NCBI RefSeq assembly: GCF_002896855.1
Contig: NZ_CP021850.1
Span: 124,001 to 188,000, forward strand
Length of the DNA stretch: 64,000 nucleotides
Direction of reading: 5' to 3'
From: Clostridium thermosuccinogenes
GTDB taxonomy: Bacteria; Bacillota; Clostridia; Acetivibrionales; DSM-5807
Position numbers and translations under genes: made by a program. Below, piece after piece: positions 13,394 to 35,556 of this stretch. The notes beneath the pieces are model-generated. The model saw nothing but the letters and a program-made list of their open reading frames with translations, had not been told where the DNA came from and did not search any database. Position 1 is the stretch's first letter. Each line of letters begins with the position of its first letter.

Positions 13394-13681
13394 ATGAAAA
13401 TCTGGGGAGAGATCCCAAAGGTAACAGAGATTTACGGCAAGCAAAAAAGCGTAGGAAAAGTAGTTAAAACACACCCTGCAGTGTCAAAAGAGGACGTGGT
13501 GGCAATATCAAACAATGCAAAGGATTTCCAGACAGCTATGAAATATATAAAAGAAATTCCGGATATACGTCAGGATAAGGTAAATGAGCTGATAGAAAGA
13601 TATGAGTCTGGAAATTACAATGTAAAAGGCAGGGAAATTGCTGAACGTATTGTTAGATCAGTTTTTGACAAAAAAGCGTAA
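13394..13681 (+). CDS. flgM: Anti-sigma factor FlgM
   Basis: 95 residues. The C-terminal half, with IPDIRQDKVNELIERYESG and YNVKGREIAERIV, is the typical sigma-28-binding region of FlgM; the N-terminal half is low-complexity and probably disordered. FlgM holds SigD inactive until it is exported through the completed hook. Position directly before flgN and flgK matches the Bacillus order. Confidence 0.92.
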   Translation: MKIWGEIPKVTEIYGKQKSVGKVVKTHPAVSKEDVVAISNNAKDFQTAMKYIKEIPDIRQDKVNELIERYESGNYNVKGREIAERIVRSVFDKKA

Positions 13682-13719: not shown

Positions 13720-13829
13720 AAAATTTATCCTTTATATGACACCTAAGTCAAGCTTCAGTATAAAAAGAGCATCATACATGAACAGTATAAATAAACCCGA
13801 TATTTGACTTTCAGGAGGTGGAGATAGCC

Positions 13830-14327
13830 TTGCAGGAATTGGTGAAAGAATTGCTGGAAGTTTTGGATGCTGAGAAAAACATATATGATGGATTGCTGAA
13901 TATTTCGAAGGACAAGACAAAGATTATTGTAGAAGGCAAAGTGGATGAACTGGATAAGATTACAAAGATGGAACAGTCTGCCATGCTCCAGATGTCAAAA
14001 TTAGAGGATAAAAGAGAGAAGATTATAAACCGTATAGCTTCAATTACAGGTGAAAAACCTGAGAGTCTTACGGTATCAAAGCTTATAGATTATGTTGACA
14101 ATGAGGATGGAATCAAGCTTCGAAGCATGAAAGACGGCATCACGAAAGTTCTGACGGAATTGAAGGAACTGAATGCTTTAAATTCCAAACTGATCGAGAA
14201 TTCATTGGAGTATATCAACTTTTCATTGAACCTGTTTGCCAGTGTTGGGGTGGAAGACAACAATTACAATATGGGAGCAGAAAAGCTGAGCAATAAAGGA
14301 AAGAACTTTTTGGACTTCAAGGTATAA
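13830..14327 (+). CDS. flgN: FlgN-family flagellar chaperone
   Basis: 165 residues, almost entirely helical with heptad-like spacing (LVKELLEVLDAEKNIYDGLL; KVDELDKITKMEQSAMLQMSKLEDKREKI). The family binds the C-termini of FlgK and FlgL and keeps them export-ready; both clients lie immediately downstream. A GTG at 13818 is in frame but sits inside the ribosome site AGGAGGT (13813-13819), so the TTG at 13830 is the better start and gives the family-typical beginning MQELVKELLEV. Confidence 0.85.
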   Translation: MQELVKELLEVLDAEKNIYDGLLNISKDKTKIIVEGKVDELDKITKMEQSAMLQMSKLEDKREKIINRIASITGEKPESLTVSKLIDYVDNEDGIKLRSMKDGITKVLTELKELNALNSKLIENSLEYINFSLNLFASVGVEDNNYNMGAEKLSNKGKNFLDFKV

Positions 14328-14391: not shown

Positions 14392-16452
14392 ATGGCTTTA
14401 GGTTTCGGCAGCCTTGAAATCGCAAGATCCGGGCTGTATACAAATGAACGTGGACTTTTTGTTACCGGGCATAACATATCCAATGTAAATACCCTGGGAT
14501 ATGTGAGACAGCAGGCTATGATCACTACAGCGAATTATTATAATACAATGAAATACCAGTTGGGTCTTGGCGCTGACATAGCAGGAATAAGGCAGATTCG
14601 CCATCAGTTCCTCGACAATATGTACCGCTCGGAAGCAAAGACCTTAGGTTATTGGGAAGCCCGGCAGAAAACTTTTACAGATGTCCAGGCTATCCTGGGA
14701 GAACCTATGGCTGATGGATTGCAGGACAGCATGAATATGTTCTGGGATGCATGGCAGGAGCTGTCTAAGGATCCCGGCAGCCTTACTACAAGGGCTATGG
14801 TAAGGCAGCGGGCGAATACCCTTATCCAGTACATAAATCATATGGGTTCCCAGTTGGATCGGCTGCAGGAGGATTTGAATTCTGAAATCATAGTCAGGAT
14901 AGATGAAATAAATGACCTTACCGCGAGCATTGCAAAGCTTAATGTAGAGATAGCCAAGGCTGAAGCTATGGGAGATGCAGCCAATGACTTGAGGGATCAA
15001 AGAAATCTCAATATTGACAAGCTAAGCAAGCTGATCGGCTGTGAAGTAAGTGAGGGTAAGGACGGACAGGTTTCTATAACCGTAGGTGGATACTTTATAG
15101 TAAACAAAGATAGGTTTGAACCCATCAAAGCTGTTCCTAATAAGCCGGGAAGTCTTTTTGTAGCTCCGGCTATAGGGGAAGAAAACACGATCCTTCAGAT
15201 AAACAGTGGTACGCTGAAAGGATTGCTGGAATCCAGAGGTGAAGTAAAATATACCAAGGGCAGCACGGAAAACGGCAGCCCTTATGATAAATTGAATCTC
15301 GTGTTTGCATTCAATCTGAATGATTCTGTGGATGCCAGGGATGAACTGCTGGTCCGAATAGACTCCATAGTGAAGACCTATACCGAAAAGGGTATACAGG
15401 TAAAGCTGGGTTTTGTTACCTTTGATGAAAACGGAGTCAGGAACAGCACAACCTTTGCGAATGATGTGGAAGATTTTAAAACTCAGGTGGGTTCGCTGGT
15501 TTTTGACGGAGGAGTTGCTGATGCAGGCGATGTGAGTGCCGCATTGAAGGATGCGCTGGACAAGACCAATCAGGAAGATGAGGATTCCGGTTGGACCAAT
15601 GCTGCAAAGCAGTTTATTCTCTTCTCCGAATCAACGGTGGATGTATCCGATGCAGCCAACGTCGATGCTTTGATTAAGCAGGCAAAGCTCATGCAAAAGG
15701 AAAATGCCCATACTCTGATATTTTCCGGCGATGGAAACAAGGATGTTCTGGGGGCGGTTTCGGAAATATCGGGAGACAGGTTTATTATTAGCGGTTTGTC
15801 CACTCCTGATACCTCGGATGATGTGGCAATAGATGAGACCATCCTGGAGAGCATGCGAAACAGCATATTTGGTGATGTGGAAAGCACAGGGAATATAATA
15901 CCGGATATAAGAAAACAGCTCAACCTTATTGTTAGCGCTTTGGTCAGGGAGGTCAACCGGCTGCACAGAAGCGGTACGACACTGGAGGGCAACCCGGGTG
16001 AGGATTTCTTTGTGGCAATCGATCCTAGTTATCCGCTTCAAATGGGAAATATACAGATCAATCCCATATTTTCCGACGCCATTGGAGGTCTTAATAACAT
16101 AGTTGCTTCCTTGAACAATTCTACCGGAGACAACACAATAGCACTTGAAATAGCCAACTTGAGGAGCATGGATTTGGTAGGTAACTTTGGACAGGTACAG
16201 AATTTGGATGAATTTTATCAGTCGATAATTATGTTGGTGGGCAATGGAGGTTCGGAGGCGACAAGCATACTAAAGAGCCAGGACACCCTTGTAAATTCCA
16301 TAGACAATCAAAGGCAATCCATCATGGGAGTATCCATGGATGAAGAGATGACCAATATGATGAAATATCAGTTTGCCTACGGGGCTTCCGGTAGGGTGAT
16401 AAATATATTGGATGAGATGTATGATACGATAATTAACAGAATGGGGGCGTAA
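14392..16452 (+). CDS. flgK: Flagellar hook-associated protein 1 with vWA-like insert
   Basis: 686 residues. FlgK forms the first hook-filament junction ring. The N-terminal D0/D1 region has ARSGLYTNERGLFVTGHNIS and NVNTLGYVRQ; the C-terminus has GVSMDEEMTNMMKYQFAYGA, both diagnostic. Typical FlgK is about 500-550 residues. The excess is residues 299-468 (15286-15795), which read as a von Willebrand A-like fold: LNLVFAFNLNDS for the first strand and MIDAS loop, VKLGFVTFDE, SLVFDGGVADAGDVSAALKDAL, and WTNAAKQFILFSEST. The MIDAS aspartate is replaced by Asn308, so metal binding is doubtful. A second flgK follows after three bases. Confidence 0.93.
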   Translation: MALGFGSLEIARSGLYTNERGLFVTGHNISNVNTLGYVRQQAMITTANYYNTMKYQLGLGADIAGIRQIRHQFLDNMYRSEAKTLGYWEARQKTFTDVQAILGEPMADGLQDSMNMFWDAWQELSKDPGSLTTRAMVRQRANTLIQYINHMGSQLDRLQEDLNSEIIVRIDEINDLTASIAKLNVEIAKAEAMGDAANDLRDQRNLNIDKLSKLIGCEVSEGKDGQVSITVGGYFIVNKDRFEPIKAVPNKPGSLFVAPAIGEENTILQINSGTLKGLLESRGEVKYTKGSTENGSPYDKLNLVFAFNLNDSVDARDELLVRIDSIVKTYTEKGIQVKLGFVTFDENGVRNSTTFANDVEDFKTQVGSLVFDGGVADAGDVSAALKDALDKTNQEDEDSGWTNAAKQFILFSESTVDVSDAANVDALIKQAKLMQKENAHTLIFSGDGNKDVLGAVSEISGDRFIISGLSTPDTSDDVAIDETILESMRNSIFGDVESTGNIIPDIRKQLNLIVSALVREVNRLHRSGTTLEGNPGEDFFVAIDPSYPLQMGNIQINPIFSDAIGGLNNIVASLNNSTGDNTIALEIANLRSMDLVGNFGQVQNLDEFYQSIIMLVGNGGSEATSILKSQDTLVNSIDNQRQSIMGVSMDEEMTNMMKYQFAYGASGRVINILDEMYDTIINRMGA

Positions 16453-16455
16453 TAG

Positions 16456-18114
16456 GTGAGGTCGTCATTTTTCGGTTTAAATGTCGCTATTACAGGACTG
16501 TACGCAGCACAGCGGAATTTGGATACCGTAGGACATAATCTATCTAATATAAATACCGAGGGGTATTCCCGTCAGGAAAATATACAGAGAGCATCACGGG
16601 CAATGTTGACATACAATGGTTCGGGGATGGTGGGAACCGGAACAGAAGTTGTTTCGACTGTGAGAATACGGGATGCATATCTCGATTACAAATACTGGAG
16701 CGAGAACATCTCTCTGGGCGAGTGGGAAGTTAAGAGCACTCAGTTGACGGAGCTGGAAAGGCTATTTAATGAACCATCTATGAATAAATCAGGATTTAAT
16801 GCTATAATGGACAGCTTTTTCAACGCCATATCCGACCTTTCAAAAAACCCTAGCGACCTGAGCGCCAGAAGAGTAGTGATAAACAGGGGAGTGTCCATGG
16901 CGAAGTATTTCAACAGTATTGCCACCCATTTGGAGAAATTGCAGTCGGATTTGAATGAATCGGTAAAACTAAAAGTTGATGAGATAAATGCCCTTGCATC
17001 ACAGATAGCTCAGTTAAACCAGAAGATACACACCTTTGAAGTCGGAGGGGATGTGGCCAACGATCTGAGGGATCAAAGAGGTGTGCTGGTGGACAAGCTG
17101 TCCAAGATTATAAATATTGATGTTAATGAGGTAGTGGTAGGAAAGCTGCCCAATGGTGAAAATAATACGCACTTTGTAATAACTGTAAGCGGCAAAGCCC
17201 TTGTGGATCATGTTAACGGATATAAGCTTGAGGTTGTGCAAAGGGATAAAAAGATAAATGTGGAAGAAGACATAGACAGGCTGTACGATGTTCGCTGGGA
17301 AGACGGCAACAAACTGGAGATTACAGGCGGAGAATTAAAAGGGTATCTCGACATGAGGGACGGAAATGAAGGCCTGGATCAGGGTAACGGGCAAAGCCCC
17401 AGATTTAAAGGCATACCTTTTTACATAAGAAGGCTCAATGAATTCGTCAGAAAATTTGCATTGGCTTTTAATGAGGGAATTGTCCAGACTGCCGGAGGAA
17501 CAGACAGCTGGATTAAGGAACATGCAGGACATGCCGACGGTTATGGCATGCAAAAGCCAGGGACAACGGTTAATCCTACCGGTATAAGATTTTTCACCAT
17601 GACGGGATGGTCAAATATAGATAATAAAACCACCGAACTGACATCGGATGAATTTATAGACAATGCCGACACTGTTGATGATATAGTAAAAAAATATAAG
17701 CTGATTACTGCTAAGAATTTCAGCGTAAGTGGAGACTTGCTGAACCAGCAGTATGGAGAGTATAATTTAGCGGCTTCGTTGGATTCGGGGCTTGGTGAGG
17801 ACAATTCCAATCTTCTTAATTTTCTGGATATGCGTGAGAACTCACATCTATTCTCAGAGGGTACACCGGAAGATTATATGACATCACTGATTGCGACCCT
17901 GGGTATAGACTCTCAGCAGGCTGCTCAGTTTTTCAGCAGTCAGGAAAACCTCACCAGCCATATAGACAACAGGAGGGTATCGGTTTCGGGAGTATCCATC
18001 AATGAAGAAATGGCAAACCTGGTGAAATTCCAGCAGGCATATAATGCCTCGGCTAAGATGATTACCACCATGGCTGAGATTTACGATAAATTGATAAACG
18101 GAATCGGAGTATAA
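16456..18114 (+). CDS. flgK: Second FlgK paralogue
   Basis: 552 residues, normal FlgK length. N-terminus GLNVAITGLYAAQRNLDTVGHNLSNINTEGYSRQ and C-terminus GVSINEEMANLVKFQQAYNASAKMI are textbook FlgK. Residues about 85-215 align in pattern with the preceding paralogue (LNEPSMNKSG/NAISDLSKNPSDLSARRVVI; GGDVANDLRDQRGVLVDKLSK), but there is no vWA-like insert. GTG start after GGGGGCG, three bases past the first flgK stop. This one looks like the conventional hook-associated protein 1; the division of labour between the two is unknown. Confidence 0.94.
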   Translation: MRSSFFGLNVAITGLYAAQRNLDTVGHNLSNINTEGYSRQENIQRASRAMLTYNGSGMVGTGTEVVSTVRIRDAYLDYKYWSENISLGEWEVKSTQLTELERLFNEPSMNKSGFNAIMDSFFNAISDLSKNPSDLSARRVVINRGVSMAKYFNSIATHLEKLQSDLNESVKLKVDEINALASQIAQLNQKIHTFEVGGDVANDLRDQRGVLVDKLSKIINIDVNEVVVGKLPNGENNTHFVITVSGKALVDHVNGYKLEVVQRDKKINVEEDIDRLYDVRWEDGNKLEITGGELKGYLDMRDGNEGLDQGNGQSPRFKGIPFYIRRLNEFVRKFALAFNEGIVQTAGGTDSWIKEHAGHADGYGMQKPGTTVNPTGIRFFTMTGWSNIDNKTTELTSDEFIDNADTVDDIVKKYKLITAKNFSVSGDLLNQQYGEYNLAASLDSGLGEDNSNLLNFLDMRENSHLFSEGTPEDYMTSLIATLGIDSQQAAQFFSSQENLTSHIDNRRVSVSGVSINEEMANLVKFQQAYNASAKMITTMAEIYDKLINGIGV

Positions 18115-18167: not shown

Positions 18168-19811
18168 ATGCGAACCACGAACAATATGTTGATTAACAAT
18201 ATGATGTTCTATATGAAGAGCAACTTGGAAAGGGTCAGCAAATACCAAACACAGCTGGCCACGGGTAAAAAGATAACCGTACCTTCGGATGACCCTATAG
18301 TTGCGGCAAGAGCGCTCAGGTTCAGAACCGATGTGTCCCAGGTGACCCAGTTCCAAAGCAATGCAAAGGACGCAAATTCATGGATGGATATGACTGAAGA
18401 TGCCCTCGGCAAGATGGGAAATATACTGCAAACGGTTTATGATAAGGCAGTGGAGGCAGCAAATACAGGTACGCAGGGCTTTGATGAAAGAAACAGCATA
18501 AGGCAGGAGATTATGCAATTAAAGGATCAAATCATCCATCTGGCTAATTCTTCGTATGCAGGGAGATACATTTTCTCCGGTTACAGCACTGATTCAAAGC
18601 TCCTTAATGATGACGGAACTTATGCTGTGTCAGTTTCCTCACGGGAAACCGCCGTTATTACCGGGGCGTTGGTTAATATGCCGGTTACCATTGACGGAAC
18701 CAATAATACTTTTGACATAAGCCTTACCGGTGGAGGGTATACTACAATTACCCTTGCGCCTAAAGCTTACACCTCCTTGGATGAACTGGCAGCGGATATA
18801 CAGAACGCCATAACTACTAAAGACCCGGATAACCTTGGAGGAATAAGGGTAAAAAACAATGGCGGCAGATTGGAGTTTTCACTGCCAAACACTGTTGATT
18901 CCAATGGGAATTACCGGCAGATATATTTGCGGAAAGGAACCAACGATCTGCTGAGCGCAGTAAACATTAAGACAGATGTCATTACAGGAATAGTAATCTC
19001 CAAAAGCGAGGATATAAATTATCAGGTAGGCATTGGAGATCTGCTTAATGTAAATGCTCTGGGGTCTGAGGTTTTTGGCTCCGGAGTAAAAGGTGATATG
19101 GGTGAACTCATATTGAAGTTGAATAACTTTATAGATTCCCTGGCGTATACGGATGACAGAAGCTATATTTACGGGCAGCCCCTTAAGGCTGATAGCCTCA
19201 ATCCCCTGACTTTTACCGGCAATGAGGAGTTCAGCATAACCATAGATGGAATCACCTATGACCATATAAAACTATCCGCTAAAACCTATGACGGGGATGC
19301 CGCTGCTAATCAGACTCTGGATGATCTGGCCTTGGATATTCAAACCCAGATAAATAATGCTATCGGTGCTGATGGCTATAGCGTAACTGTAAAAAATGAC
19401 AACGGCAGAATTGTAATATGTGAAGACAGTGGTAAACAGATAACCCTGACGGAAGGTGCGGCCGGGGTGGATGCCCTGAGGAAGCTCAATATTTACACCA
19501 ATACGGACAAGAAGGTCACCTCCTTTACAGGTGAAGAAGGATTACAGAATGCGATCGGCGATATGCAGCTTTTGCATAATAAAATATTGAGCATACAGGC
19601 TGACATAGGTGCGAGGACAAACCGGGCGGAACTGACCTTAAACCGTCTCGGAAGCGACGAGATGAACTTTACGGAGCTTATGAGCAACAATGAGGATGTG
19701 GATATTGCCGAGGCCATCATGAATCTCATGAACGAATATAATGTATATAATGCTTCCCTGGCGGGAGGCGCCAGGGTTATAATGACATCTCTGGTGGATT
19801 TTCTAAAATAG
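18168..19811 (+). CDS. flgL: Flagellar hook-associated protein 3, enlarged
   Basis: 547 residues against about 300 in Bacillus. The N-terminus MRTTNNMLINNMMFYMKSNL and the C-terminal helix region (GARTNRAELTLNRLGSDEMNF...EDVDIAEAIMNLMNEYNVYNASL) are those of FlgL, the second junction protein. The extra central part has two related beta-rich modules, residues about 173-266 and 348-441, each with an ITIDG/VTIDG strand, a (S/T)LD(E/D)LA.DIQ..I helix and a final G(R)(L/I).. strand, so it looks internally duplicated. GAAAGGAGT lies before the ATG. Confidence 0.92.
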   Translation: MRTTNNMLINNMMFYMKSNLERVSKYQTQLATGKKITVPSDDPIVAARALRFRTDVSQVTQFQSNAKDANSWMDMTEDALGKMGNILQTVYDKAVEAANTGTQGFDERNSIRQEIMQLKDQIIHLANSSYAGRYIFSGYSTDSKLLNDDGTYAVSVSSRETAVITGALVNMPVTIDGTNNTFDISLTGGGYTTITLAPKAYTSLDELAADIQNAITTKDPDNLGGIRVKNNGGRLEFSLPNTVDSNGNYRQIYLRKGTNDLLSAVNIKTDVITGIVISKSEDINYQVGIGDLLNVNALGSEVFGSGVKGDMGELILKLNNFIDSLAYTDDRSYIYGQPLKADSLNPLTFTGNEEFSITIDGITYDHIKLSAKTYDGDAAANQTLDDLALDIQTQINNAIGADGYSVTVKNDNGRIVICEDSGKQITLTEGAAGVDALRKLNIYTNTDKKVTSFTGEEGLQNAIGDMQLLHNKILSIQADIGARTNRAELTLNRLGSDEMNFTELMSNNEDVDIAEAIMNLMNEYNVYNASLAGGARVIMTSLVDFLK

Positions 19812-19830
19812 CTGAATGGAGAGAATATAT

Positions 19831-20283
19831 ATGGATATAAATACCAGGCACTTTGGAAAGATTACAGTGAAAGATGAGGATATAATAGACTTTCCTGAAG
19901 GGATTCCGGGATTTGAAGGCACAAAGAAGTTTGTGCTTCTGGATGATGGAGATAAAAGTTCCCCTTTCAGGTGGCTGCAAGGCGTGGACAATCCTGAGCT
20001 GGCCCTCGTTTTGATTGACCCTAGATATTTTAAGCCTGATTATGTGGTGGATGTAAATGATGCTGATGTGGAAATACTAGATATCAAGGATACCGACAAG
20101 GTTATCGTTTATAGCATTGTAGTGATACCTGAAGATGTCTCAAAAATGACAGCGAATCTCAAGGCTCCTGTGCTTATAAACACAGAAAACAGGACGGGCA
20201 AACAGGTGGTAACCGAAAACAACGACTACAGGGTCAGGCACTACATAATGGAAGAGATGAAGCTGATTGGAGGACAGGTATAG
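19831..20283 (+). CDS. fliW: Flagellar assembly factor FliW
   Basis: 150 residues beginning MDINTRHFGKITVKDEDI with the FliW signature FPEGIPGFEGTKKFVLLDD. FliW binds either flagellin or CsrA; when flagellin is exported, FliW is freed, sequesters CsrA and relieves repression of flagellin translation. An ATG at 19816 is in frame but lacks a ribosome site, while GGAGAG at 19818-19823 fits the ATG at 19831. The stop directly abuts the csrA ATG, so both are likely translationally coupled. Confidence 0.94.
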   Translation: MDINTRHFGKITVKDEDIIDFPEGIPGFEGTKKFVLLDDGDKSSPFRWLQGVDNPELALVLIDPRYFKPDYVVDVNDADVEILDIKDTDKVIVYSIVVIPEDVSKMTANLKAPVLINTENRTGKQVVTENNDYRVRHYIMEEMKLIGGQV

Positions 20284-20577
20284 ATGCTGGTGCTGACAAG
20301 AAAAAAGGGCCAATCAATCATGGTGGGTGAAGATATAGAAATAACCATCGTGGACATCCAGGGAGACCAGGTGCGCCTTGGAATAAACGCTCCAAAAAAC
20401 GTCGCTATCCACAGGAAGGAAGTGTTTGTCGAGATACAGGAGGAAAACAGGATAGCGGCGGATGTTAATCCGGAAAGGCTGAAAGGCATATTGTCGAAAA
20501 GTTGTAAAGAAAAAGATGAAAAAAGGTATAAAGTATTTTTCCGGGTGTTCGATATATATAATAAGAAACCAGAATAA
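20284..20577 (+). CDS. csrA: Translational regulator CsrA, extended C-terminus
   Basis: 97 residues. The core [20 protein letters not shown]...[22 protein letters not shown] (1-50) is classical CsrA and includes the RNA-contact residues Leu4, Arg6 and the VAIHR(K)E segment containing Arg44. CsrA is usually 60-75 residues; here about 25-30 extra, Lys-rich residues ([24 protein letters not shown]) follow. GGAGG at 20269-20273 inside fliW serves as the ribosome site. The flagellin leader 70-110 bases downstream has two candidate target sites. Confidence 0.95.
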
Positions 20578-20696: not shown

Positions 20697-21551
20697 ATGA
20701 TTATCAATCACAATCTTTTGGCTATGAACGCTCATCGCCAGCTGTCAATAAACAGCAATGCACAGACTAAGTCACTGGAAAAGCTCTCTTCTGGTTACAG
20801 GATAAACAGAGCCGGTGACGATGCTGCTGGTTTGGCAATATCCGAAAAAATGAGAAGCCAGATCAGAGGTTTGAACCAGGCTTCAAGAAATGCTCAGGAT
20901 GGCATCTCCCTCATACAGACTGCAGAAGGCGCATTGAATGAAACCCATGAAATACTGCAGAGAATGAGAGAACTGGTTGTACAGGCTGGTAACACTGGTA
21001 CAAACGATACAAATGATTTGAAGAAAATCCAGGACGAAATAGACGCTCTCCAGAAAGAGCTTGGTGGAATTAGCGGAGATAGTGGAATTTCAGACCGTAC
21101 TCAGTTTAACGGAAAAGCTTTGTTGAATGGAAGTGTGACAACAGGCTTTACTTTCCAGATCGGTGCTAACTCTGGACAACAGGTATCACTTACTATTTCA
21201 TCAATGTCAGTTGCAAGCTTGGGAGTAGGTGCAGGTTCAATTGCCGTTGCTTCTTTTGCTACAGACAGTACTGCATTCAATACTCAGCTGAAGGCTATTG
21301 ATGATGCTATAGAAAAGGTTTCAACTCAGCGTTCAGCTCTCGGTGCTATGCAGAACAGGCTTGAACATACTATCAAGAACCTGGACAATGCTGCTGAGAA
21401 CCTGCAGGCTGCAGAATCCCGTATCCGTGATGTAGACATGGCTAAGGAAATGATGGAGTATACGAAACAGAGCATACTCAATCAGGCAGCTACTGCAATG
21501 CTTGCTCAGGCAAATCAGGTGCCACAGAATGTGCTTCAGTTGCTGAGATAA
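20697..21551 (+). CDS. hag: Flagellin
   Basis: 284 residues. The N-terminal domain begins MIINHNLLAMNAHRQLSIN and carries SSGYRINRAGDDAAGLAISEKMR; the C-terminal domain has AESRIRDVDMAKEMMEYTK and ends NVLQLLR. The variable centre (about 130-200) is short and rich in Ser, Thr and Gly, a plausible region for O-glycosylation. It is the filament monomer. AAGGAGGA precedes the ATG, a leader hairpin suggests CsrA control, and a strong terminator follows. Codon use is cleaner than in the following genes, as expected for an abundant protein. Confidence 0.97.
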   Translation: MIINHNLLAMNAHRQLSINSNAQTKSLEKLSSGYRINRAGDDAAGLAISEKMRSQIRGLNQASRNAQDGISLIQTAEGALNETHEILQRMRELVVQAGNTGTNDTNDLKKIQDEIDALQKELGGISGDSGISDRTQFNGKALLNGSVTTGFTFQIGANSGQQVSLTISSMSVASLGVGAGSIAVASFATDSTAFNTQLKAIDDAIEKVSTQRSALGAMQNRLEHTIKNLDNAAENLQAAESRIRDVDMAKEMMEYTKQSILNQAATAMLAQANQVPQNVLQLLR

Positions 21552-21594: not shown

Positions 21595-21676
21595 TTACAT
21601 ATTAGCTTTATAGAGTGCTTCGGAAGGAGTGTTGTATAAAGCTAATAAAACACTGATGAAGAAAGGGTCATACTTT

Positions 21677-24600
21677 ATGAAATTGAGCATAGCTATGATG
21701 GTTAAAAATCAATCAAAACATCTTGATGAATGCTTGAAGAGTTTACAACCTGTCAGAGAAAAAATAGATTCAGAGCTTATAATAGTGGATACAGGTTCTG
21801 AAGATGATACTGTTGATATTGCGAAAAGATATACCGATAAGGTGTATTTTCATGAGTGGACCGGGAATTTTGCCGAGATGAGGAATATTTCCATCAGCTA
21901 TACCAAAGGAGAATGGGTTTTTATTATAGATGGAGATGAAGTCATTGAAAATGCTGATCCGTTAATAGATTTCTTTAAAAAAGGCATTTATAAAAACTAT
22001 AATGCAGCTGTTATTACTGTCCGAAGTTTTTCAAATGACAAATATGATGCATATTATGATGCGTGCTTGCCACGGCTGTTTAAGAAGACTGCCCAATTTA
22101 AGTATGAAGGAGCTATACATGAACAGCCGGTAGTAAGCTTGCCTGTGTGCAGGATTAATTTGATGCTTCTTCATTATGGTTATATAACTACGGATAACAA
22201 GCTTATGGAGTATAAATTTAAAAGGAATGTGGAAATGCTGAAAAAAGAGCTGGACAGGGACCCTGAGAATATTTACTACTGGTTTCAAATGTCCCAGTCC
22301 TATGGTATGCATAGAGATTTCAAAGATGCGATGGAAGCCATAGATATTGCCTATAACCTGCTTAAGCAAAAGGGGAAAGATTTGAACGATTATTATTATG
22401 TGTTGCATCATATGGTGTACGTTTACAATTTGAATGGGAAATACAAAGAAACGGAGAAGCTATGTCATGAGGCCATAAAAGTAAAGGACGGCTATATCGA
22501 TATATATTATCACCTGGGAAAAGCTCAAATGAATCTTGGAAAGTATGATGAGGCGGTTAAAAGCTTTAGTGCATATCTTTCCATGTTGGAATGTCCCGAA
22601 AAATTTACCGGTAAAAACGATGCAACGCTGACTCACTATACATTGCAAGCATATGAAGAAATATACAGGGACATGGTTCTGCTGTATGAAGCATTGGAAA
22701 ACTATTCTGAAGCACTATCATATGCAGAAAAGATCAATGATAAGAGTTTTCTTGTCTCTGCATTTCCTGGAATCATAAAGTCCTATATAAAAGATAACAG
22801 GATTACAGGCTTAAAGGATTATTTTGATAATGTGGTTAAGGGTAAGTTTCCTGAATTGGAGAATGACTTCATTATCAGCCTTGAAAACATAAAATATAAA
22901 GAGTTTAGTTCTGAAATACAGCATAAGCTGACCGAAGCTTTTGCAGCAGGTGATGGGAACTATGCTTTATTGAATAAGATTAGGCTGCATGAAGATAAGG
23001 ATGATCTGGCTTCAAGCCTGGTTGATAGCATAAAAGGTTGGGATTTTGCTGCTTTGCCTGCTGCATATGGCGATATACTATATTACCTTATGAAGAGAAA
23101 TATATCCATACATCCATTTTTTGACAGATTAATGGAGAAGTATTTGATCGGCTGCATTGAATATATTTCCGTTCTTCATAAAGATGCTGCAGCTGTCATT
23201 TATGACTATATTGCTAATGTGATGTCTCATGCCGAATCCCTTGAAGAGCTTAGTATAAAAAGGGCTCTGGAAAGATGCGCTTTACTGATTGGTGGATTGG
23301 ATGAGAAACAATACAGTGATGTATTCAGTAAGTATATAAAGGATGGAACTGAATTTATTAATAATCTATACAAGAGGGAAATAATTGAGAATGAAGCAGT
23401 TCATCTGGTGAAAACCGAAGAAGATGCTTTTCTCATTTACATGATTCTTGCTGAACAGAATAAGGAAAAGAGCCCTTTGAAGTATGTTCAATATTTGCGA
23501 AAGGCTCTAAAAGTATATCCAGCTATGAAAAAGGGCATAGAGCTGTTGCTTGATGATATTAAGAAAGAAGAAGGATCTGAAGAGAAAAATCTGAATGAAT
23601 ATAAAAGAATATTTAAAGAGAACATCAAAAAGCAGGTGGAATCCGGGGAGATTGCCCTTTCTTTGACATTAATAAATGAGTATAAAAAACTTGTGGGTGA
23701 GGATGTAGATATATACTCAATCGAGGCGGTTATTGCCATGATGGAGGGAAGGCTGGATGATGCGGAAAGCTTGCTGAATAAAGGAATGAATATAGATGGA
23801 GCTAATTTCGATATTCTTTATAATTTAGCTTATGTTTATATGCTTAAAGAAGATAAAAGTAAGGCATTTGTATATTATTCAAAAGCGTATGAAGTATCAA
23901 AGGACAGTAACCTTAAAGATGAAATAGCTGCAATATTGGATCAAATCAAAAATGAAAAAGGATTTGATGAAATCCTCTATGAAACGGAAATGGCTGGGCA
24001 GGATAATGAAAAGGATCCTGGCAGCATGCTGAATAAATATAAAAGAGAGGTAAAAATCAGTATTCAGTCCATGATAGAACAAGGATTGCTGCAGGAAGCC
24101 AAGGCCTTAGTAAGCGAATACAACGAAATTGTAAAAGACGATATAGAGATATACTCCATGCAAGGAGTTATTGCCATGATGGATGGAGATATGGAGGTCG
24201 CAGAAGAGATCTTTAAGGCAGGTCTTGCTGTGGATGATGAAAATTTTGATCTTCTATATAATCTAGGCTATCTATATCAGTCTAAACAAGAAAATGATAA
24301 GGCAATAGAGTTTTATCAGAGAGCTCTTAAAAATGCTAATGATGAGAGTACTGCGAATGGTTTATATGAAATACTCCGGGGTTTAGGAGTTCAGAAAAGC
24401 AAAGATAGCCTTGTGCGTAAGGCTTTGCCAAAGACAAGCATTATTATACTAACCTATAACAATCTGGAATACAACAAACTGTGTATAGAGAGCATCAGAA
24501 AGTATACAGAAAAAGAAACCTATGAAATAATTGTGGTAGACAATCACTCAACTGATGGGACAGTAGATTGGCTGAAACAGCAAAATGATCTAAAACTGAT

Positions 24601-26119
24601 TTTGAATAATAAAAATTATGGCTTCCCCAAAGGATGCAATCAGGGAATTAAGGCTGCAGAGGAAGGCAATGATATATTGCTGTTGAATAACGATACGATT
24701 GTTACCCCGAACTGGCTAAAAAATTTGAAAAAATGTTTATACAGCAAAGATGATATAGGTGCAGTAGGATCGGTAACAAATTCTTGCTCAAATTTACAGG
24801 TTATACCTGCAAATTACAGTAATCTTGAAGAAATGATCGCCTTTGCTGCTAAGAACAATGTGAGCAACAGTTCTTTATGGGAAGAAAGGCTAAGGCTTGT
24901 AGGCTTCTGCATGCTGATAAAAAATGAAGTGGTAAAAAAGATAGGCTTACTGGATGAAAGGTTCACACCTGGAAATTTTGAGGATGATGATTTCTCATTT
25001 AGAATAAGAAAAGCCGGATATAGGCTGATTCTTTGCAAGGATAGCTTCATTCACCATTTTGGAAGTACTTCTTTTAAAAAAGTATCCGATAAATATAATG
25101 AGTTGCTTATTAACAACAGGAAGAAGTTTGCTGAAAAATGGGGGTTTGATCCTTATTATATAATAGATATTGATAGGGGAATAACGGAACTAGTGAGTAA
25201 GACAGGCAAAGAAAACATCCGTGTTCTGCATATTGGTTGCGCAGGTGGCGGGACATTGCTGGACATAAAAAATACTGTTCCTTCATCTGAACTGTTCGGA
25301 ATAGAACCTGTAAAAGAATGTATTGTTAATGTAAACCATTTTGCGGATATAAGAGTTGGTGATTTAGAAGCAATAAAGACATTTGATAAGAATTATTTCG
25401 ACTTTATAATATATACACAGCCGCAACGTAAAGAAAGTATAGTGGAAGATTTATTGCTGATAAAAGAATATTTAAAAGAAAACGGCACTATGTATATTGC
25501 TATTACCGAAGAGTCAGTTAACGCAGATAGAAATTTCATTAAGAGCTTGAGAGAAAAAATTGAAGGTTATTCATTCAAGTTTATTACAGTGATGGGCCGA
25601 CAGTTTTTAGTAATGGAGGAAGCAGGTGACGAAGGTTCTGGTAGTGTTTTAAAACTGAAAGTATACAACAAAGAGAATATATGCAAATTGGTAGCTAATG
25701 GGATACCAGGGAGTGGATTGCCAGATCATGATGCTATAATAAAACTCATTAGGAGACTAGACAGCAATATTGATTATGATAGGTGTTTGGAAAGGATTGG
25801 TATACTGGTTGAGGAAGGCAAGCTAGATAGTGAAAAAGTAAAAAATATTATTCAAAAGCATGGAACTGACAAGATAAGATTGTTTAATTTGATGGGGTTA
25901 TTATTCTTTCAAAATAGATTTTATGATAAGGCATTAATGCTTTTAAGAGAGGCCCTAAAGTTGGACAGGAAGAACAGGGATACTATCTACAATATTGCCT
26001 TTGTTTTGCACCGGTTAAATCAAAATGAAGCGGCACTTGGATTTTTAAATGAAATAAACTATTCAGAAAAAGATACAGAATTCGCCCAATTAAAGCACCA
26101 GATAGAGGAGGCATTATAA
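21677..26119 (+). CDS. Giant TPR protein with two glycosyltransferase domains and a methyltransferase-like domain
   Basis: 1480 residues. Residues 1-110 are a family 2 glycosyltransferase (MKLSIAMMVKNQSKHLDECL, DTGSEDDTVDIA, DGDEVIEN as the DXD-type site). A long TPR-like helical region follows (about 190-870) and contains a duplicated unit, each with N.YKR, (E/Q).VIAMM(E/D)G and NFD(I/L)LYNL. A second family 2 domain spans about 916-1165 (TSIIILTYNNLEYNKLC, VVDNHSTDGTVDWL, LLNNDTIVTPNW). Residues about 1178-1300 (VLHIGCAGGGTLLDI, LFGIEPV) resemble a class I methyltransferase, then more TPR. GAAAGGG at 21661-21667 supports this ATG over in-frame starts at 21629 and 21656. Next to flagellin, filament glycosylation is the likely role. 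Confidence 0.85.
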   Translation: MKLSIAMMVKNQSKHLDECLKSLQPVREKIDSELIIVDTGSEDDTVDIAKRYTDKVYFHEWTGNFAEMRNISISYTKGEWVFIIDGDEVIENADPLIDFFKKGIYKNYNAAVITVRSFSNDKYDAYYDACLPRLFKKTAQFKYEGAIHEQPVVSLPVCRINLMLLHYGYITTDNKLMEYKFKRNVEMLKKELDRDPENIYYWFQMSQSYGMHRDFKDAMEAIDIAYNLLKQKGKDLNDYYYVLHHMVYVYNLNGKYKETEKLCHEAIKVKDGYIDIYYHLGKAQMNLGKYDEAVKSFSAYLSMLECPEKFTGKNDATLTHYTLQAYEEIYRDMVLLYEALENYSEALSYAEKINDKSFLVSAFPGIIKSYIKDNRITGLKDYFDNVVKGKFPELENDFIISLENIKYKEFSSEIQHKLTEAFAAGDGNYALLNKIRLHEDKDDLASSLVDSIKGWDFAALPAAYGDILYYLMKRNISIHPFFDRLMEKYLIGCIEYISVLHKDAAAVIYDYIANVMSHAESLEELSIKRALERCALLIGGLDEKQYSDVFSKYIKDGTEFINNLYKREIIENEAVHLVKTEEDAFLIYMILAEQNKEKSPLKYVQYLRKALKVYPAMKKGIELLLDDIKKEEGSEEKNLNEYKRIFKENIKKQVESGEIALSLTLINEYKKLVGEDVDIYSIEAVIAMMEGRLDDAESLLNKGMNIDGANFDILYNLAYVYMLKEDKSKAFVYYSKAYEVSKDSNLKDEIAAILDQIKNEKGFDEILYETEMAGQDNEKDPGSMLNKYKREVKISIQSMIEQGLLQEAKALVSEYNEIVKDDIEIYSMQGVIAMMDGDMEVAEEIFKAGLAVDDENFDLLYNLGYLYQSKQENDKAIEFYQRALKNANDESTANGLYEILRGLGVQKSKDSLVRKALPKTSIIILTYNNLEYNKLCIESIRKYTEKETYEIIVVDNHSTDGTVDWLKQQNDLKLILNNKNYGFPKGCNQGIKAAEEGNDILLLNNDTIVTPNWLKNLKKCLYSKDDIGAVGSVTNSCSNLQVIPANYSNLEEMIAFAAKNNVSNSSLWEERLRLVGFCMLIKNEVVKKIGLLDERFTPGNFEDDDFSFRIRKAGYRLILCKDSFIHHFGSTSFKKVSDKYNELLINNRKKFAEKWGFDPYYIIDIDRGITELVSKTGKENIRVLHIGCAGGGTLLDIKNTVPSSELFGIEPVKECIVNVNHFADIRVGDLEAIKTFDKNYFDFIIYTQPQRKESIVEDLLLIKEYLKENGTMYIAITEESVNADRNFIKSLREKIEGYSFKFITVMGRQFLVMEEAGDEGSGSVLKLKVYNKENICKLVANGIPGSGLPDHDAIIKLIRRLDSNIDYDRCLERIGILVEEGKLDSEKVKNIIQKHGTDKIRLFNLMGLLFFQNRFYDKALMLLREALKLDRKNRDTIYNIAFVLHRLNQNEAALGFLNEINYSEKDTEFAQLKHQIEEAL

Positions 26120-28260
26120 TGAATGATAAAAAGATATGCTTTATAAGCTGTGTTAATGATCATGAGCTCTATCGGGAAGCTCTCTTTTACATCAATCAGT
26201 TGGAAGTACCGGAGGGTTATGAAATAGAGTGCATTTCCGTAGAGAATGCCGAATCTATGGCTCAGGGATACAATGAAGCTATGAAGGCCTCAGATGCGAA
26301 ATACAAGGTGTATTTGCATCAAGACGTGTATATAAGGAATCGTTTTTTCATTAGAGATATTATAAATATCTTTAAAAGTGATGATAGAATTGGGATGATT
26401 GGTGTTATAGGTTCCAAAACAATTCCTCCAAGCGGTATATGGTGGGAATCTGGTAGAAAGTGTGGAAAAGTATTTGATAGTCATACAGGTGAAATGCAGC
26501 TGTTGTCTTATGGCGATGTACAAAGCGAATACGATATAGTGCAGGCTATAGATGGTCTTATTATGATTACACAGTATGATGTTCCATGGCGCGAGGACAT
26601 ATTTGACGGATGGCATTTTTATGATATTTCACAATGTATAGAGTTTAATATGAGAGGATACAAAGTTTCCATTCCGAGACAGGAACAGCCTTGGGTAATA
26701 CATGACTGCGGCCTTGTAAATGTAAGAAACGGATATGATAAGTATCGTTCCATATTTGTTAGTGAGTATAGCAAGTTTTCTATCTTTACTGATGGAGAAA
26801 ATGATATGAATTTTTATAGCTTTGGTATAAATTCTAGGATTGACAGAGGATATGATATTTTTTGCCCTGAGGGTATCTCTATCGGTAATAATGTTTTAAT
26901 TCAAAGAGATTGCTGGTTAATGCTTCCTTTTAATAATTTTTATGGTAGTCCCAGGATTGTTATCGGTGACGGTTGCGATATAGGTAGAAGATGCAATATT
27001 TCTGCTGCTAACCGAATTGAGTTAGAGAAAAATGTACTTGTGGCTCCTAATGTTCATATATCAGACCATAACCATGCATATGACTTGATTGGGATTCCCA
27101 TAAAAAACCAGGGCATAGATTCATTTAACAACGAGGTTGTAATTGGTGAAGGCTCTTGGATTGGAATTAACAGCGTTATCGTTGGGAATGTACATATCGG
27201 TAAGGGTAGTGTAATTGGTGCTAATAGTGTGGTTATTGATGATTTACCAGAATACTGTGTGGCAGCAGGCAATCCTGCTAAAGTAATTAAGCTGTTTGAT
27301 AGAGTTTCTGGAAAATGGATTAGAGTGAAAGACAAGGAGCATCTAGATGAAATTCTTAAAGCTAGAGAGACTGCATCCCCTTTATTATCAATATGTATAC
27401 CTACATTTAACAGAGCAAAAAAACTAGAAAAATGCTTAAACTCAATATACAGCCAAATTGGTAATGATTCTAATTTTGAAATTGTAATATCAGATAATAA
27501 TTCTCCTGACAATACAAAAGAGGTAGTTGAGAAATATAAAGCAACGTATAGTAATATAAACTATTATAAAAATGATACGAATATTGGTCCAGAAAGAAAT
27601 TTCATAAGTTGCATTAAAAAAGCTAATGGTAAATATGTTCTATTGCATGGTGATGATGATTATTTTAAGGCTGGTACATTATACAAATTATTAAATATCA
27701 TAATGAAAATTAGTAATTGTTCTTTGTATTTTATTAATGTTTTAAAAGATGATCAGAGTGTAGAGATTTTAGAAGGCCTAGATGTTTTTTTAAAGGAGAC
27801 ATCAATAAATTCAACTTTTGCTTCATCTATCCTTTTTAGCAAAGAGGAATTTGATTGTATTGATGATATATGTAAATTCATTGGAAGTAGCATAAACCAT
27901 TTATACTGGCAGTTTATGCTTTTGAAAAAGAATCCAACCTTTTGCTTGATCAACGAATCTATCTTTTATCAAGATAAGAATGAGAATTCTGGATATAATT
28001 ATGGAGAAGTTTTTATTAAAAATTACTTAGCAATACTAAACTATTTTGTAGAAGATGGAAGTCTTAGCGCAGAAGTGGTGAAGGAAGACAAAAAGAAAAT
28101 TTTAGATTCAACAATATTCTACTGGTATAAGTATATTCTTGATAACAACCTAGACTTGGATGTTAGCAATCTGGAGAACATATTTATAGAGCATTATAAG
28201 GATGAACCTTATTTTGAAAAAGCTCACTCAATTATAAAAGCTATAAAATATAATCGATAG
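26119..28260 (+). CDS. Glycosyltransferase - hexapeptide acyltransferase - glycosyltransferase fusion
   Basis: 713 residues in three parts. About 1-215 resembles the glycosyltransferase-like group with CISVENAESMAQGYNEAM and VYLHQDVYI. About 247-400 is a left-handed beta-helix acyltransferase (repeating I/V-G-x-G-x-x-I, HISDHNHAYD with the catalytic-type His, and GNPAKVIK at its end). About 414-640 is a family 2 glycosyltransferase (LLSICIPTFNRAKKLEKCL, SDNNSPDNTKEVV, LLHGDDDYF). The ATG overlaps the previous TAA (TAATG), so the two are translationally coupled. Base use becomes markedly AT-rich from about 27300. Likely transfers and acylates glycan residues; substrates unknown. Confidence 0.82.
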   Translation: MNDKKICFISCVNDHELYREALFYINQLEVPEGYEIECISVENAESMAQGYNEAMKASDAKYKVYLHQDVYIRNRFFIRDIINIFKSDDRIGMIGVIGSKTIPPSGIWWESGRKCGKVFDSHTGEMQLLSYGDVQSEYDIVQAIDGLIMITQYDVPWREDIFDGWHFYDISQCIEFNMRGYKVSIPRQEQPWVIHDCGLVNVRNGYDKYRSIFVSEYSKFSIFTDGENDMNFYSFGINSRIDRGYDIFCPEGISIGNNVLIQRDCWLMLPFNNFYGSPRIVIGDGCDIGRRCNISAANRIELEKNVLVAPNVHISDHNHAYDLIGIPIKNQGIDSFNNEVVIGEGSWIGINSVIVGNVHIGKGSVIGANSVVIDDLPEYCVAAGNPAKVIKLFDRVSGKWIRVKDKEHLDEILKARETASPLLSICIPTFNRAKKLEKCLNSIYSQIGNDSNFEIVISDNNSPDNTKEVVEKYKATYSNINYYKNDTNIGPERNFISCIKKANGKYVLLHGDDDYFKAGTLYKLLNIIMKISNCSLYFINVLKDDQSVEILEGLDVFLKETSINSTFASSILFSKEEFDCIDDICKFIGSSINHLYWQFMLLKKNPTFCLINESIFYQDKNENSGYNYGEVFIKNYLAILNYFVEDGSLSAEVVKEDKKKILDSTIFYWYKYILDNNLDLDVSNLENIFIEHYKDEPYFEKAHSIIKAIKYNR

Positions 28261-28290
28261 TGTTCTCAAAAGTATAAAGGGGGGTACAGC

Positions 28291-29067
28291 ATGAAAGTAG
28301 TAATACTAGCAGGCGGTTTTGGCTCTCGCATAAGTGAAGAATCACATCTAAAACCTAAACCTATGATTGAGTTAGGTGATAAGCCAATATTATGGCATAT
28401 AATGAAAATTTACTCGCATTATGGTTATAACGATTTTATCATATGCTTAGGGTATAAAGGCTACTATATAAAGGAGTACTTTGCACATTACTTTCTTCAT
28501 GAATCGGATGTCACTTTTGACTTTGGAAATGGAGGAAATATGACGGTTAACAGTAATTTATCCGAACCGTGGAAAGTAACCCTTGTTAACACGGGAATAA
28601 ACACAATGACTGGAGGTAGAGTTAAAAGAATTGAGCCATATATAGGAAACGAGACATTTATGTTAACTTATGGAGATGGAGTAGCCGATATAGATATTAA
28701 TGAATTGCTTAGATTCCATAGATCACACGGAAAGCTTGTTACACTTACATCTGTACAGCCGGAAGGAAGATTTGGTCATCTTAGTATTAGTGCTGATGAT
28801 AGAGTGTTAGGGTTTGAAGAAAAGCCAAAAGGAGACGGCAACTGGGTAAATGGAGGATATTTTGTAATGGAACCGGGTATTTTTGAATACTTAAATGGAG
28901 ATGACACAGTGCTTGAGAAGTACCCACTAGAAAGATTAGCTATAGAGGGAGAACTTGCTGCATATAAGCATACAGGCTTTTGGTATTCTATGGATACCAT
29001 GAGAGATAAAAACTATTTGGACCATATATGGCAAACCGGTAATGCACCATGGAAAGTATGGAGGTAA
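28291..29067 (+). CDS. rfbF: Glucose-1-phosphate cytidylyltransferase
   Basis: 258 residues. The nucleotidyltransferase start is VVILAGGFGSRISEESHLKPKPMIELGDKPILWHIM, with LTYGDGVADID as the metal site and FEEKPKGDGNWVNGGYFV later; all are hallmarks of the CDP-glucose-forming type. It makes CDP-glucose, the first step to CDP-deoxysugars. AAGGGGGG precedes the ATG. It opens the AT-rich CDP-sugar cassette. Confidence 0.95.
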   Translation: MKVVILAGGFGSRISEESHLKPKPMIELGDKPILWHIMKIYSHYGYNDFIICLGYKGYYIKEYFAHYFLHESDVTFDFGNGGNMTVNSNLSEPWKVTLVNTGINTMTGGRVKRIEPYIGNETFMLTYGDGVADIDINELLRFHRSHGKLVTLTSVQPEGRFGHLSISADDRVLGFEEKPKGDGNWVNGGYFVMEPGIFEYLNGDDTVLEKYPLERLAIEGELAAYKHTGFWYSMDTMRDKNYLDHIWQTGNAPWKVWR

Positions 29068-29078
29068 TCAATAAACTT

Positions 29079-30149
29079 ATGATAGATGTAGGCTTCTGGA
29101 GCAATAAAAAAGTATTAGTGACAGGACATACAGGGTTTAAAGGCTCATGGTTGAGTATATGGCTTTATTCTATGGGTGCCAAAGTAATGGGATATTCATT
29201 AGAACCACCTACAGAACCAAGCCTTTATAAAATATGCAGAGTAGATGAACTAGTTGTTTCGCATATTGGAGATATTCGTGATAAGGAATCTCTAATTACC
29301 TATTTTATGTCATTTAGACCAGAAATCGTCATACACATGGCAGCTCAACCAATAGTACGTGAGTCCTATAAAAATCCGGTTGGTACATATGAAATAAATG
29401 TTATGGGGACAGTTAACCTGTTGGAAGCTGTTAGAATGAGTCCAGGAGTTAAAGCCGTAATTAATGTTACAACAGATAAATGCTATGAAAATAAGGAATG
29501 GGTTTGGGGATACAGAGAATTAGACCAGCTTGGCGGGTACGATCCTTACTCAAATAGCAAAGCTTGTTCCGAGCTTATAACCGAATCATATAGAAGTTCG
29601 TTTTTTAACCCAAATGAATACGATACTCATGGAGTGGCTATAGCAACAGCGAGAGCTGGAAATGTTATTGGTGGAGGGGACTGGGCGACAGACAGGCTTA
29701 TACCAGATTGTATCAAAGCATTGCTTAGTAATAATGAAATCTTAGTAAGAAACCCTAACTCTGTTAGGCCATGGCAGCATGTACTAGAGCCCCTTTCTGG
29801 ATATCTAATTTTGGCACAGAAGCTTTTTGAACAAGGACCAGAATACTCAGGAGCTTGGAATTTTGGACCGGAGTTTCCTGATGCCAGACCGGTAAGCTGG
29901 ATCGTAAGTGAATTGTGTAGACTTTGGGGCAAAAATGCGACTTTCAGAATAGACAAAAGCAAGCAACCTCATGAAGCAAATTATCTTAGGCTGGATTGTT
30001 CCAAAGCTAAGCAAATGCTTGGGTGGAGCCCAAGATGGGATATTGAAACTGCGTTGAAAAAAGTCGTAGATTGGACACTAGAATATAAAGATGGATTAGA
30101 TCCAAGGGAATCCTGCATTAGACAGATTAATGAGTACTTAAATACTTAA
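29079..30149 (+). CDS. rfbG: CDP-glucose 4,6-dehydratase
   Basis: 356 residues, a short-chain dehydrogenase-type sugar dehydratase. NAD site TGHTGFKGSWLS near the N-terminus; catalytic YSNSK (in YDPYSNSKACSEL) with the upstream TTDKCYEN segment typical of this subfamily; VRPWQHVLEPLSGYL is also characteristic. It converts CDP-glucose to CDP-4-keto-6-deoxyglucose. In-frame ATGs at 29049 and 29058 overlap rfbF; ATG 29079 gives the family-typical beginning MIDVGFWSNKKVLVTG, though its spacing to TGGAGG is long. Confidence 0.93.
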   Translation: MIDVGFWSNKKVLVTGHTGFKGSWLSIWLYSMGAKVMGYSLEPPTEPSLYKICRVDELVVSHIGDIRDKESLITYFMSFRPEIVIHMAAQPIVRESYKNPVGTYEINVMGTVNLLEAVRMSPGVKAVINVTTDKCYENKEWVWGYRELDQLGGYDPYSNSKACSELITESYRSSFFNPNEYDTHGVAIATARAGNVIGGGDWATDRLIPDCIKALLSNNEILVRNPNSVRPWQHVLEPLSGYLILAQKLFEQGPEYSGAWNFGPEFPDARPVSWIVSELCRLWGKNATFRIDKSKQPHEANYLRLDCSKAKQMLGWSPRWDIETALKKVVDWTLEYKDGLDPRESCIRQINEYLNT

Positions 30150-30169
30150 GACGGAGTGTGATAGCTTAT

Positions 30170-31528
30170 ATGGAAAACTCATTAGATAAAGAGAAAGCAC
30201 TTAGAGAGAAAGTAATTAATGCTGCAATTGAGCATTATAAGGTAATGCATGGTCAAAACAAAGGTAGATTTACCCCTGGTGATCGCATCTCCTATGCAGG
30301 AAGAGTTTTTGATGAAAAAGAAATATCATACTTGATAGATGCTTCATTGGAATTTTGGCTGACTTCAGGTAAGTATGCTGATATGTTTGAAAGGAAATTC
30401 GCAGAATTCCTGGGTGTAAATTATTGTTCCTTAGTGAATTCAGGTTCTTCTGCCAACTTGCTTGCTTTTATGGCATTAACATCTCCGGAACTAGAAGCAA
30501 GAGCCATAAAACGAGGGGATGAGGTTATTACTGTTGCAGCAGGTTTTCCAACTACAGTAGCGCCTATAATACAGTACGGAGCAGTTCCAGTGTTTATCGA
30601 TGTTACTATTCCAGAATGTAATATTGACTGTTCGTTACTTGAGAAAGCATTGTCATCAAAAACAAAAGCAGTCATGCTTGCTCATACTCTTGGTAATCCT
30701 TTTGATCTTGAAGCTTTGAGAAACTTTTGTGACAGACATGGATTATGGCTTATAGAAGATAATTGTGACGCCCTTGGAACTAAGTATTATTATAATGATT
30801 GCTGGAGATATACAGGTACAATTGGTGATATTGGCACTTCAAGTTTTTATCCTCCTCATCACATAACTATGGGTGAGGGAGGGGCAGTTTATACTAATAA
30901 TTTAAGATTAAAGAGAATAATTGATTCTCTTAGAGATTGGGGAAGAGATTGCTGGTGCCAATCGGGATATGATAATACATGCAATAAAAGATTCAGTCAG
31001 CAATTTGGTGAGCTACCGTATGGATATGATCACAAATATGTATATTCACATTTTGGTTATAATCTGAAAGTAACCGATATGCAGGCTGCAATTGGTTGTG
31101 CTCAGTTAGAAAAACTCCCAGCATTTATTGCAGCTCGAAAACACAACTGGAAAATTTTGAGATCTGGTTTAGACGGTTTTAGTGACAAGTTTATATTGCC
31201 AAAGGCAGCAAAAAATTCTGATCCCAGTTGGTTCGGATTTTTGATTATGGTTAAAGAGGATGCAGGATTTACAAGAGATGAATTTGTTGATTATTTAGAA
31301 AGCAATAATATTCAGACAAGGATGTTATTTGCTGGTAATCTTATTAAGCATCCTTGTTTTAATGAAATGAGAAACACAGGAGAAGGTTATAGAGTGGTTG
31401 GTAAACTTACTAATACTGACAGAATAATGAATCAATCTTTATGGATTGGCGTATATCCAGGTATGACACATCAAATGCTTGAGTATATTATCTCTAAAAT
31501 TACTGACTATGTGAGGAGATATAGGTGA
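30170..31528 (+). CDS. rfbH: CDP-4-keto-6-deoxyglucose-3-dehydratase (E1)
   Basis: 452 residues, a DegT-fold PMP enzyme with an iron-sulfur cluster that removes the C3 hydroxyl. Diagnostic features: the PLP lysine is replaced by His in FYPPHHITMGEGGAVY, and the cluster cysteines are visible in DWGRDCWCQSGYDNTC. NSGSSANLLA and LIEDNCDALGT are cofactor-contact segments. The product is the intermediate for 3,6-dideoxy sugars. No matching E3 reductase gene lies in this cassette, so the electron donor must be elsewhere. The stop overlaps the next start by four bases. Confidence 0.95.
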   Translation: MENSLDKEKALREKVINAAIEHYKVMHGQNKGRFTPGDRISYAGRVFDEKEISYLIDASLEFWLTSGKYADMFERKFAEFLGVNYCSLVNSGSSANLLAFMALTSPELEARAIKRGDEVITVAAGFPTTVAPIIQYGAVPVFIDVTIPECNIDCSLLEKALSSKTKAVMLAHTLGNPFDLEALRNFCDRHGLWLIEDNCDALGTKYYYNDCWRYTGTIGDIGTSSFYPPHHITMGEGGAVYTNNLRLKRIIDSLRDWGRDCWCQSGYDNTCNKRFSQQFGELPYGYDHKYVYSHFGYNLKVTDMQAAIGCAQLEKLPAFIAARKHNWKILRSGLDGFSDKFILPKAAKNSDPSWFGFLIMVKEDAGFTRDEFVDYLESNNIQTRMLFAGNLIKHPCFNEMRNTGEGYRVVGKLTNTDRIMNQSLWIGVYPGMTHQMLEYIISKITDYVRRYR

Positions 31529-34568: not shown

Positions 34569-34569
34569 A

Positions 34570-35493: not shown

Positions 35494-35556
35494 TAATATC
35501 GATATGACAATATTAATCGGAAATCATAGTCCACTAGGCTATGAAATTAAAGGGTT

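Follow-up and report, generated by a model that had tools for sequence, protein, structure and literature searches.

The first of two tandem FlgK proteins (FlgK1) encoded by a 64,000-nucleotide stretch of Clostridium thermosuccinogenes DNA (positions 124,001 to 188,000 of contig NZ_CP021850.1; hereafter the window) is predicted to contain a complete von Willebrand A (vWA) domain at residues 298–494, an assignment strongly supported by family sequence comparisons and by the modelled structure. The gene flgK1 (14392–16452, forward strand) encodes the first hook-filament junction protein (HAP1), of 686 aa, which matches TIGR02492 (E = 2.6e-102; 343.4 bits for an equivalog cut-off of 170.75) and FlgK_D1 (E = 2.5e-54). 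The predicted structure has the FlgK D1 fold, its core aligning with 2d4y (Z = 33.5 over 340 residues, 2.0 Å) and with 4ut1, 9go6 and 5xbj (Z = 28.7–31.8). The second gene of the pair, flgK2 (16456–18114, forward strand), encodes a FlgK protein of 552 aa without a vWA domain (TIGR02492, E = 5e-95). Most relatives have this tandem arrangement (14392–18114) too, as do other clostridial families. According to modelling for Salmonella, FlgK layers stacked on one another clash (PMC12221982), which makes the sharing of one junction by two FlgK proteins a puzzle.

Sequence searches of Pfam and the PDB with the window's copy of the insert alone gave no VWA match. We aligned 49 first FlgK proteins, from the window and from genomes of the same order. 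A homologous insert of 166–232 residues is present in 35 of them, indicating that it is genuine, conserved and bounded; two others leave their contig inside the insert and the remaining 12 have 0–31 residues at the site. Scanned singly, 17 of these 35 inserts match PF00092 (Pfam VWA; best E = 9.1e-12). The profile built from all 35 matches collagen VI in the PDB (6e-22, summed over many domains in one chain), as well as I domains such as those of integrin alpha-M and alpha-L (from 1e-5). In the AlphaFold model of FlgK1 (34 sequences, mean pLDDT 78), residues 300–494 adopt the canonical vWA order b1-a1-b2-b3-a2-a3-b4-a4-b5-a6-b6-a7, with a pLDDT mostly of 80–89 inside the domain and a low stretch at 469–477, i.e., a confidence that is good, not excellent. 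Structural alignment of residues 298–494 retrieves vWA structures (Z = 17–19, 162–178 residues, about 2.5 Å). The same procedure applied to a relative from another clade (L069) again gives a FlgK core and a vWA insert, and both predicted structures display a Rossmann-like fold whose strands and helices follow the canonical order. A preliminary description of this DNA had proposed a vWA-like domain in the first FlgK, and the motifs that it quoted do lie where it placed them; the structure prediction and the survey of FlgK proteins that it suggested both bear the proposal out. The contrary outcome that it named, a D2/D3 beta domain of the usual FlgK kind, was not found.

The putative vWA domain (15283–15873, forward strand; delimited by AlphaFold, vWA structural matches and the family profile) is composed of b1 (300–308), a1 (314–332), b2 (336–345), b3 (348–356), a2 (359–367), a3 (378–399), b4 (404–412), a4 (421–436), b5 (439–445), a6 (447–460), b6 (464–466) and a7 (480–494). 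It is preceded by a stalk or linker (residues 285–297; 15244–15282, forward strand) with the consensus VxGxxGSxENGxPN in the family alignment, whose V, N and G are invariant in 54 of 54 family members. The span originally proposed for the domain, residues 299–468, was right in location and has to be extended to 298–494 plus the stalk. Its 170 residues also fall short of the excess in length that they were meant to explain, which amounts to ~216 aa including the stalk when FlgK1 is compared with insert-less relatives of 476–518 aa. In L030, L033, L035 and L047, the insert has 166–172 aa and corresponds to a trimmed vWA domain from which strand 3, helix 2 and their surroundings are missing.

The N-terminal D0/D1 part of FlgK1 extends through helix a6 (residues 1–284, with a6 at 274–282; 14392–15243, forward strand; predicted secondary structure and alignment), and the C-terminal D1/D0 part begins with helix a7 (502–526; 15892–16452, forward strand; predicted secondary structure). 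These two helices flanking the insert correspond to a6 and a7 of Campylobacter jejuni FlgK. Sequence and model thus place the vWA domain inside the helical D1 domain, which it would split between a6 and a7, outside the D2/D3 region. At the same point, C. jejuni FlgK has a 14-residue insertion, and the Salmonella and Burkholderia proteins have one continuous helix (PMC5691160). The stretch running from a6 into a7 comprises 22–73 residues in the other clostridial FlgK proteins sampled and 38 aligned residues in FlgK2, and exceeds 200 only in vWA proteins. In known FlgK proteins, D2 comes after a7; the Salmonella domain comprises 120 residues and that of C. jejuni 160 (PMC5691160). FlgK1 has only ~55 aa (527–581) between a7 and the next D1 helix and hence no usual D2; in FlgK2, 119 aligned residues occupy this site. 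A nearly empty D2 site (63–68 aligned residues) is common to these vWA-bearing FlgK1 proteins, and relatives that lack the vWA domain have one just as small. The preliminary description had located the domain in the exposed region of FlgK. The splice point in D1, rather than in D2/D3, speaks against that placement; a globular domain of ~200 residues spliced into D1 would still be expected to project outward from the FlgK ring, and the notion of exposure is to that extent retained.

We surveyed 391 genomes of the class, counting vWA-FlgK proteins from frame length and profile span. FlgK of any kind is present in 153 of these genomes, and vWA-FlgK in 14 from the same order, 17 from one further family (f162) and three from another (f179). 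Among bearers with a name are Ruminiclostridium, Pseudobacteroides, Anaerobacterium, Herbivorax and Acetivibrio alkalicellulosi, and the domain occurs in many plant-fibre-degrading clostridia. The search of the genome collection used the insert alignment with its flanks and covers FlgK proteins whose flanking motif fits the search pattern. Beyond the class, 398 sampled genomes of the phylum yielded a few further vWA matches, mostly in long proteins; two frames of 488 and 502 aa (G109 and G351) are candidate vWA-FlgK proteins.

On the tree of the FlgK core, the presence and absence of the vWA domain needs five changes, at least four of them forced by well-supported branches, and insert-less relatives nested among bearers retain remnants of the stalk, such as SINSLGSMDGG in L031. 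This distribution reads as an old gain followed by repeated losses. In a separate order devoid of the vWA domain, the FlgK proteins inspected have GDVAGYKGSVENGS-like stalks, and the stalk could have arisen before the vWA domain. FlgK proteins from one other clostridial order (L140 and L149–L153) carry the motif GxVxGxxGSxENGS without a vWA domain, followed by an acidic stretch; their stalk would be either the scar of a loss or an older element. At the site of a lost vWA domain in L034 (1187–1279), the sequence DVDGDGVLD resembles a calcium-binding loop. The idea that vWA loss goes with thermophily was considered through the G+C content of 16S rRNA genes, of which few were measurable: 55.1% in one non-bearer, 50.8–53.1% in bearers. 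The 16S rRNA genes of L185 (G000), L182 and L184 are about 120–190 bases longer than in other relatives.

The vWA domain is the fastest-evolving part of FlgK1, at about three times the rate of the core, with a median pairwise identity of 0.28; the values for D1 and the stalk are 0.53 and 0.60, respectively. Where estimable, many distant pairs being saturated, dN/dS ranges from 0.08 to 0.27 in the vWA domain and from 0.04 to 0.11 in the core; it is 0.11 in the vWA domain of L005 and L006, a pair from inside the clade that lacks the metal ion-dependent adhesion site (MIDAS). These values, obtained from sequences, suggest a domain that changes quickly yet stays folded, under purifying selection. 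A pairing of the vWA domain with a larger hook protein was not supported, since FlgE open frames are mostly of 440–500 aa in bearers and non-bearers alike.

FlgK1 would be a normal junction subunit with a whole vWA domain spliced into the D1 bundle, between a6 and a7, on a 13-residue stalk. In Salmonella, FlgK forms an 11-subunit ring between the hook and FlgL, with exposed D2 domains (PMC12221982), so that up to 11 vWA domains could form a collar around the junction here, and fewer if FlgK2 shares the ring. Rapid evolution under purifying selection, together with repeated loss in lineages that have ordinary FlgE and FlgL sizes, suggests that the domain would be a surface module and not one that bears load. 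Its most likely role would be a metal-independent contact with a cell-surface or matrix protein, or with substrate-bound material; the MIDAS residues being absent (see below), this contact would be made by the face and loops of the domain instead of a bound Mg2+. From the fold, its site and its history we infer this exposed and dispensable collar, including its place in the ring and its function in binding, and the arguments on the two sides appear to us evenly balanced. In Salmonella, the D1 helices are described as lying buried in the junction (PMC12221982), and the exit of a vWA domain from that core is a supposition; the loss of the metal site is also what one expects of a domain losing its function; and the main protein of the junction could be the adjacent FlgK2. 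The wider proposal, that the junction of many clostridia bears a ring of vWA domains binding external proteins or matrix and so forms a collar with an adhesive or sensory function beyond mere coupling, is put forward tentatively, as somewhat doubtful.

Alternatively, the vWA domain could stand in for D2 as a structural spacer that fills or stiffens the junction ring, or packs on FlgL, with no external ligand. We consider this rather unlikely, even if the nearly empty D2 site of FlgK1 proteins would suit it, together with a stalk as conserved as the core and the co-variation of outer FlgK domains with hook domains in Campylobacter (PMC5691160). FlgL, for its part, is near 310 aa in the insert-less relatives measured and in many bearers, and FlgL frames of more than 400 aa, including those of the window's clade near 550 aa, belong within the order to bearers only, a distribution that is not independent of ancestry; this restriction leaves some weight to a structural role of the vWA domain. 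However, vWA-less relatives combine an equally small D2 site with ordinary FlgE and FlgL, indicating that the space need not be filled, and one would hardly look for a spacer in the part of FlgK1 that evolves fastest.

A metal-dependent adhesin operating through its MIDAS, like integrin I domains or PilB of Streptococcus sanguinis, is improbable even for part of the family. The PilB vWA module does bind protein ligands with a working MIDAS (PMC8179133), and the first MIDAS Asp is kept in 43 of 54 family members and the first Ser in 37; three members (L069, L074 and L091) have a near-complete site, with DxSxT or similar and Thr and Asp at the other positions. The third-loop Asp, however, is found in only seven of the 54, across which the alignment of the second MIDAS loop is uncertain, and the D319A substitution alone abolished metal binding in PilB (PMC8179133). 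In the window's copy, the first motif is degenerate (N308-L-N310-D-S312 in place of DxSxS; 15313–15327, forward strand; alignment of 54 members), and the metal positions are occupied by N308, N310, S312, Val and Glu, which do not make up a DxSxS/T/D site. The preliminary description had recognized a DxSxS-like loop without its first Asp, and N308 does replace that residue, but the loss is wider, the first Ser being gone as well (N310). The ligand-binding fold that it envisaged is therefore not supported here in the integrin (MIDAS) sense, the absence of these residues making an integrin-like, metal-dependent binding unlikely.

It is very improbable that the domain is a force sensor of the type suggested for PilY1 on type IV pili, deformed by junction torque into a surface-contact signal: PilY1 senses force with its vWA domain (PMC8806160), and the insertion interrupts a D1 helix of FlgK, for which a role in absorbing mechanical stress has been suggested (PMC12221982), but the window's vWA domain has no cysteine, on which the PilY1 mechanism depends, and the outside of a rotating shaft offers no obvious signal route. 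Equally remote is the case of a relict drifting without function in the window's lineage, where the missing metal site, several vWA losses in nearby lineages and the low identity have to be set against the dN/dS of the MIDAS-less pair, a full-length open frame and an intact predicted fold.

Returning to the proposed collar, FlgK1 resembles the FlgK (HAP1) proteins of Salmonella, Burkholderia and Campylobacter in its D0/D1 core (337–360 residues at 1.9–2.5 Å), but the outer domains of the latter lie at the D2 site after a7, whereas that of FlgK1 is found between a6 and a7, with D2 absent. Its vWA domain, of a kind with which integrins and pilus tips hold on to other proteins, has the fold, strand order and family profile match of vWA/integrin I domains (PF00092), but belongs to a flagellar axial protein and has a MIDAS that is lost here and incomplete in most relatives. 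In PilB (PMC8179133) and in PilY1 of Pseudomonas aeruginosa (PMC8806160), a vWA domain is likewise grafted on a secreted surface filament; there, the filament is a pilus and the MIDAS motif is kept, whereas the FlgK1 domain is flagellar and is located within a junction subunit instead of at a tip. A flagellar axial protein with a foreign domain inside it is also known from flagellinolysin (PMC5595980), where a peptidase occupies the hypervariable region of flagellin in many copies per filament, against at most ~11 copies of the FlgK1 vWA domain. We found no description of a vWA domain in FlgK in the open-access literature; the architecture may already be listed in automatic domain databases. 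Foreign domains in flagellin and vWA modules on pili are already known, and the D1 splice site departs from the D2/D3 location in solved FlgK structures. The junction is usually treated as a structural coupling, and a vWA collar, if confirmed, would be a new site of decoration on the flagellum. The existence of close relatives with and without the vWA domain makes its role directly testable.

The tandem genes are part of an operon with the order flgM-flgN-flgK1-flgK2-flgL-fliW-csrA-flagellin, all on the forward strand. Upstream are flgM (13394–13681; PF04316, 1.9e-16) and flgN (13818–14327; PF05130, 1.1e-27), and the downstream genes, assigned with Pfam, are flgL (18168–19811), fliW (19816–20283), csrA (20284–20577) and the flagellin gene (20697–21551). 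The window's FlgL has 547 aa, and the ~330 residues between its N- and C-terminal flagellin parts match no Pfam family. A FlgL length of ~550 aa is limited within the order to six genomes, which form the window's clade, where the FlgK vWA domain has lost its metal site. The region 3′ of the flagellin gene (21629–36375) encodes glycosyltransferases, an aminotransferase, epimerases, a nucleotidyltransferase and a split transketolase, and is a probable locus for flagellar or surface glycans.
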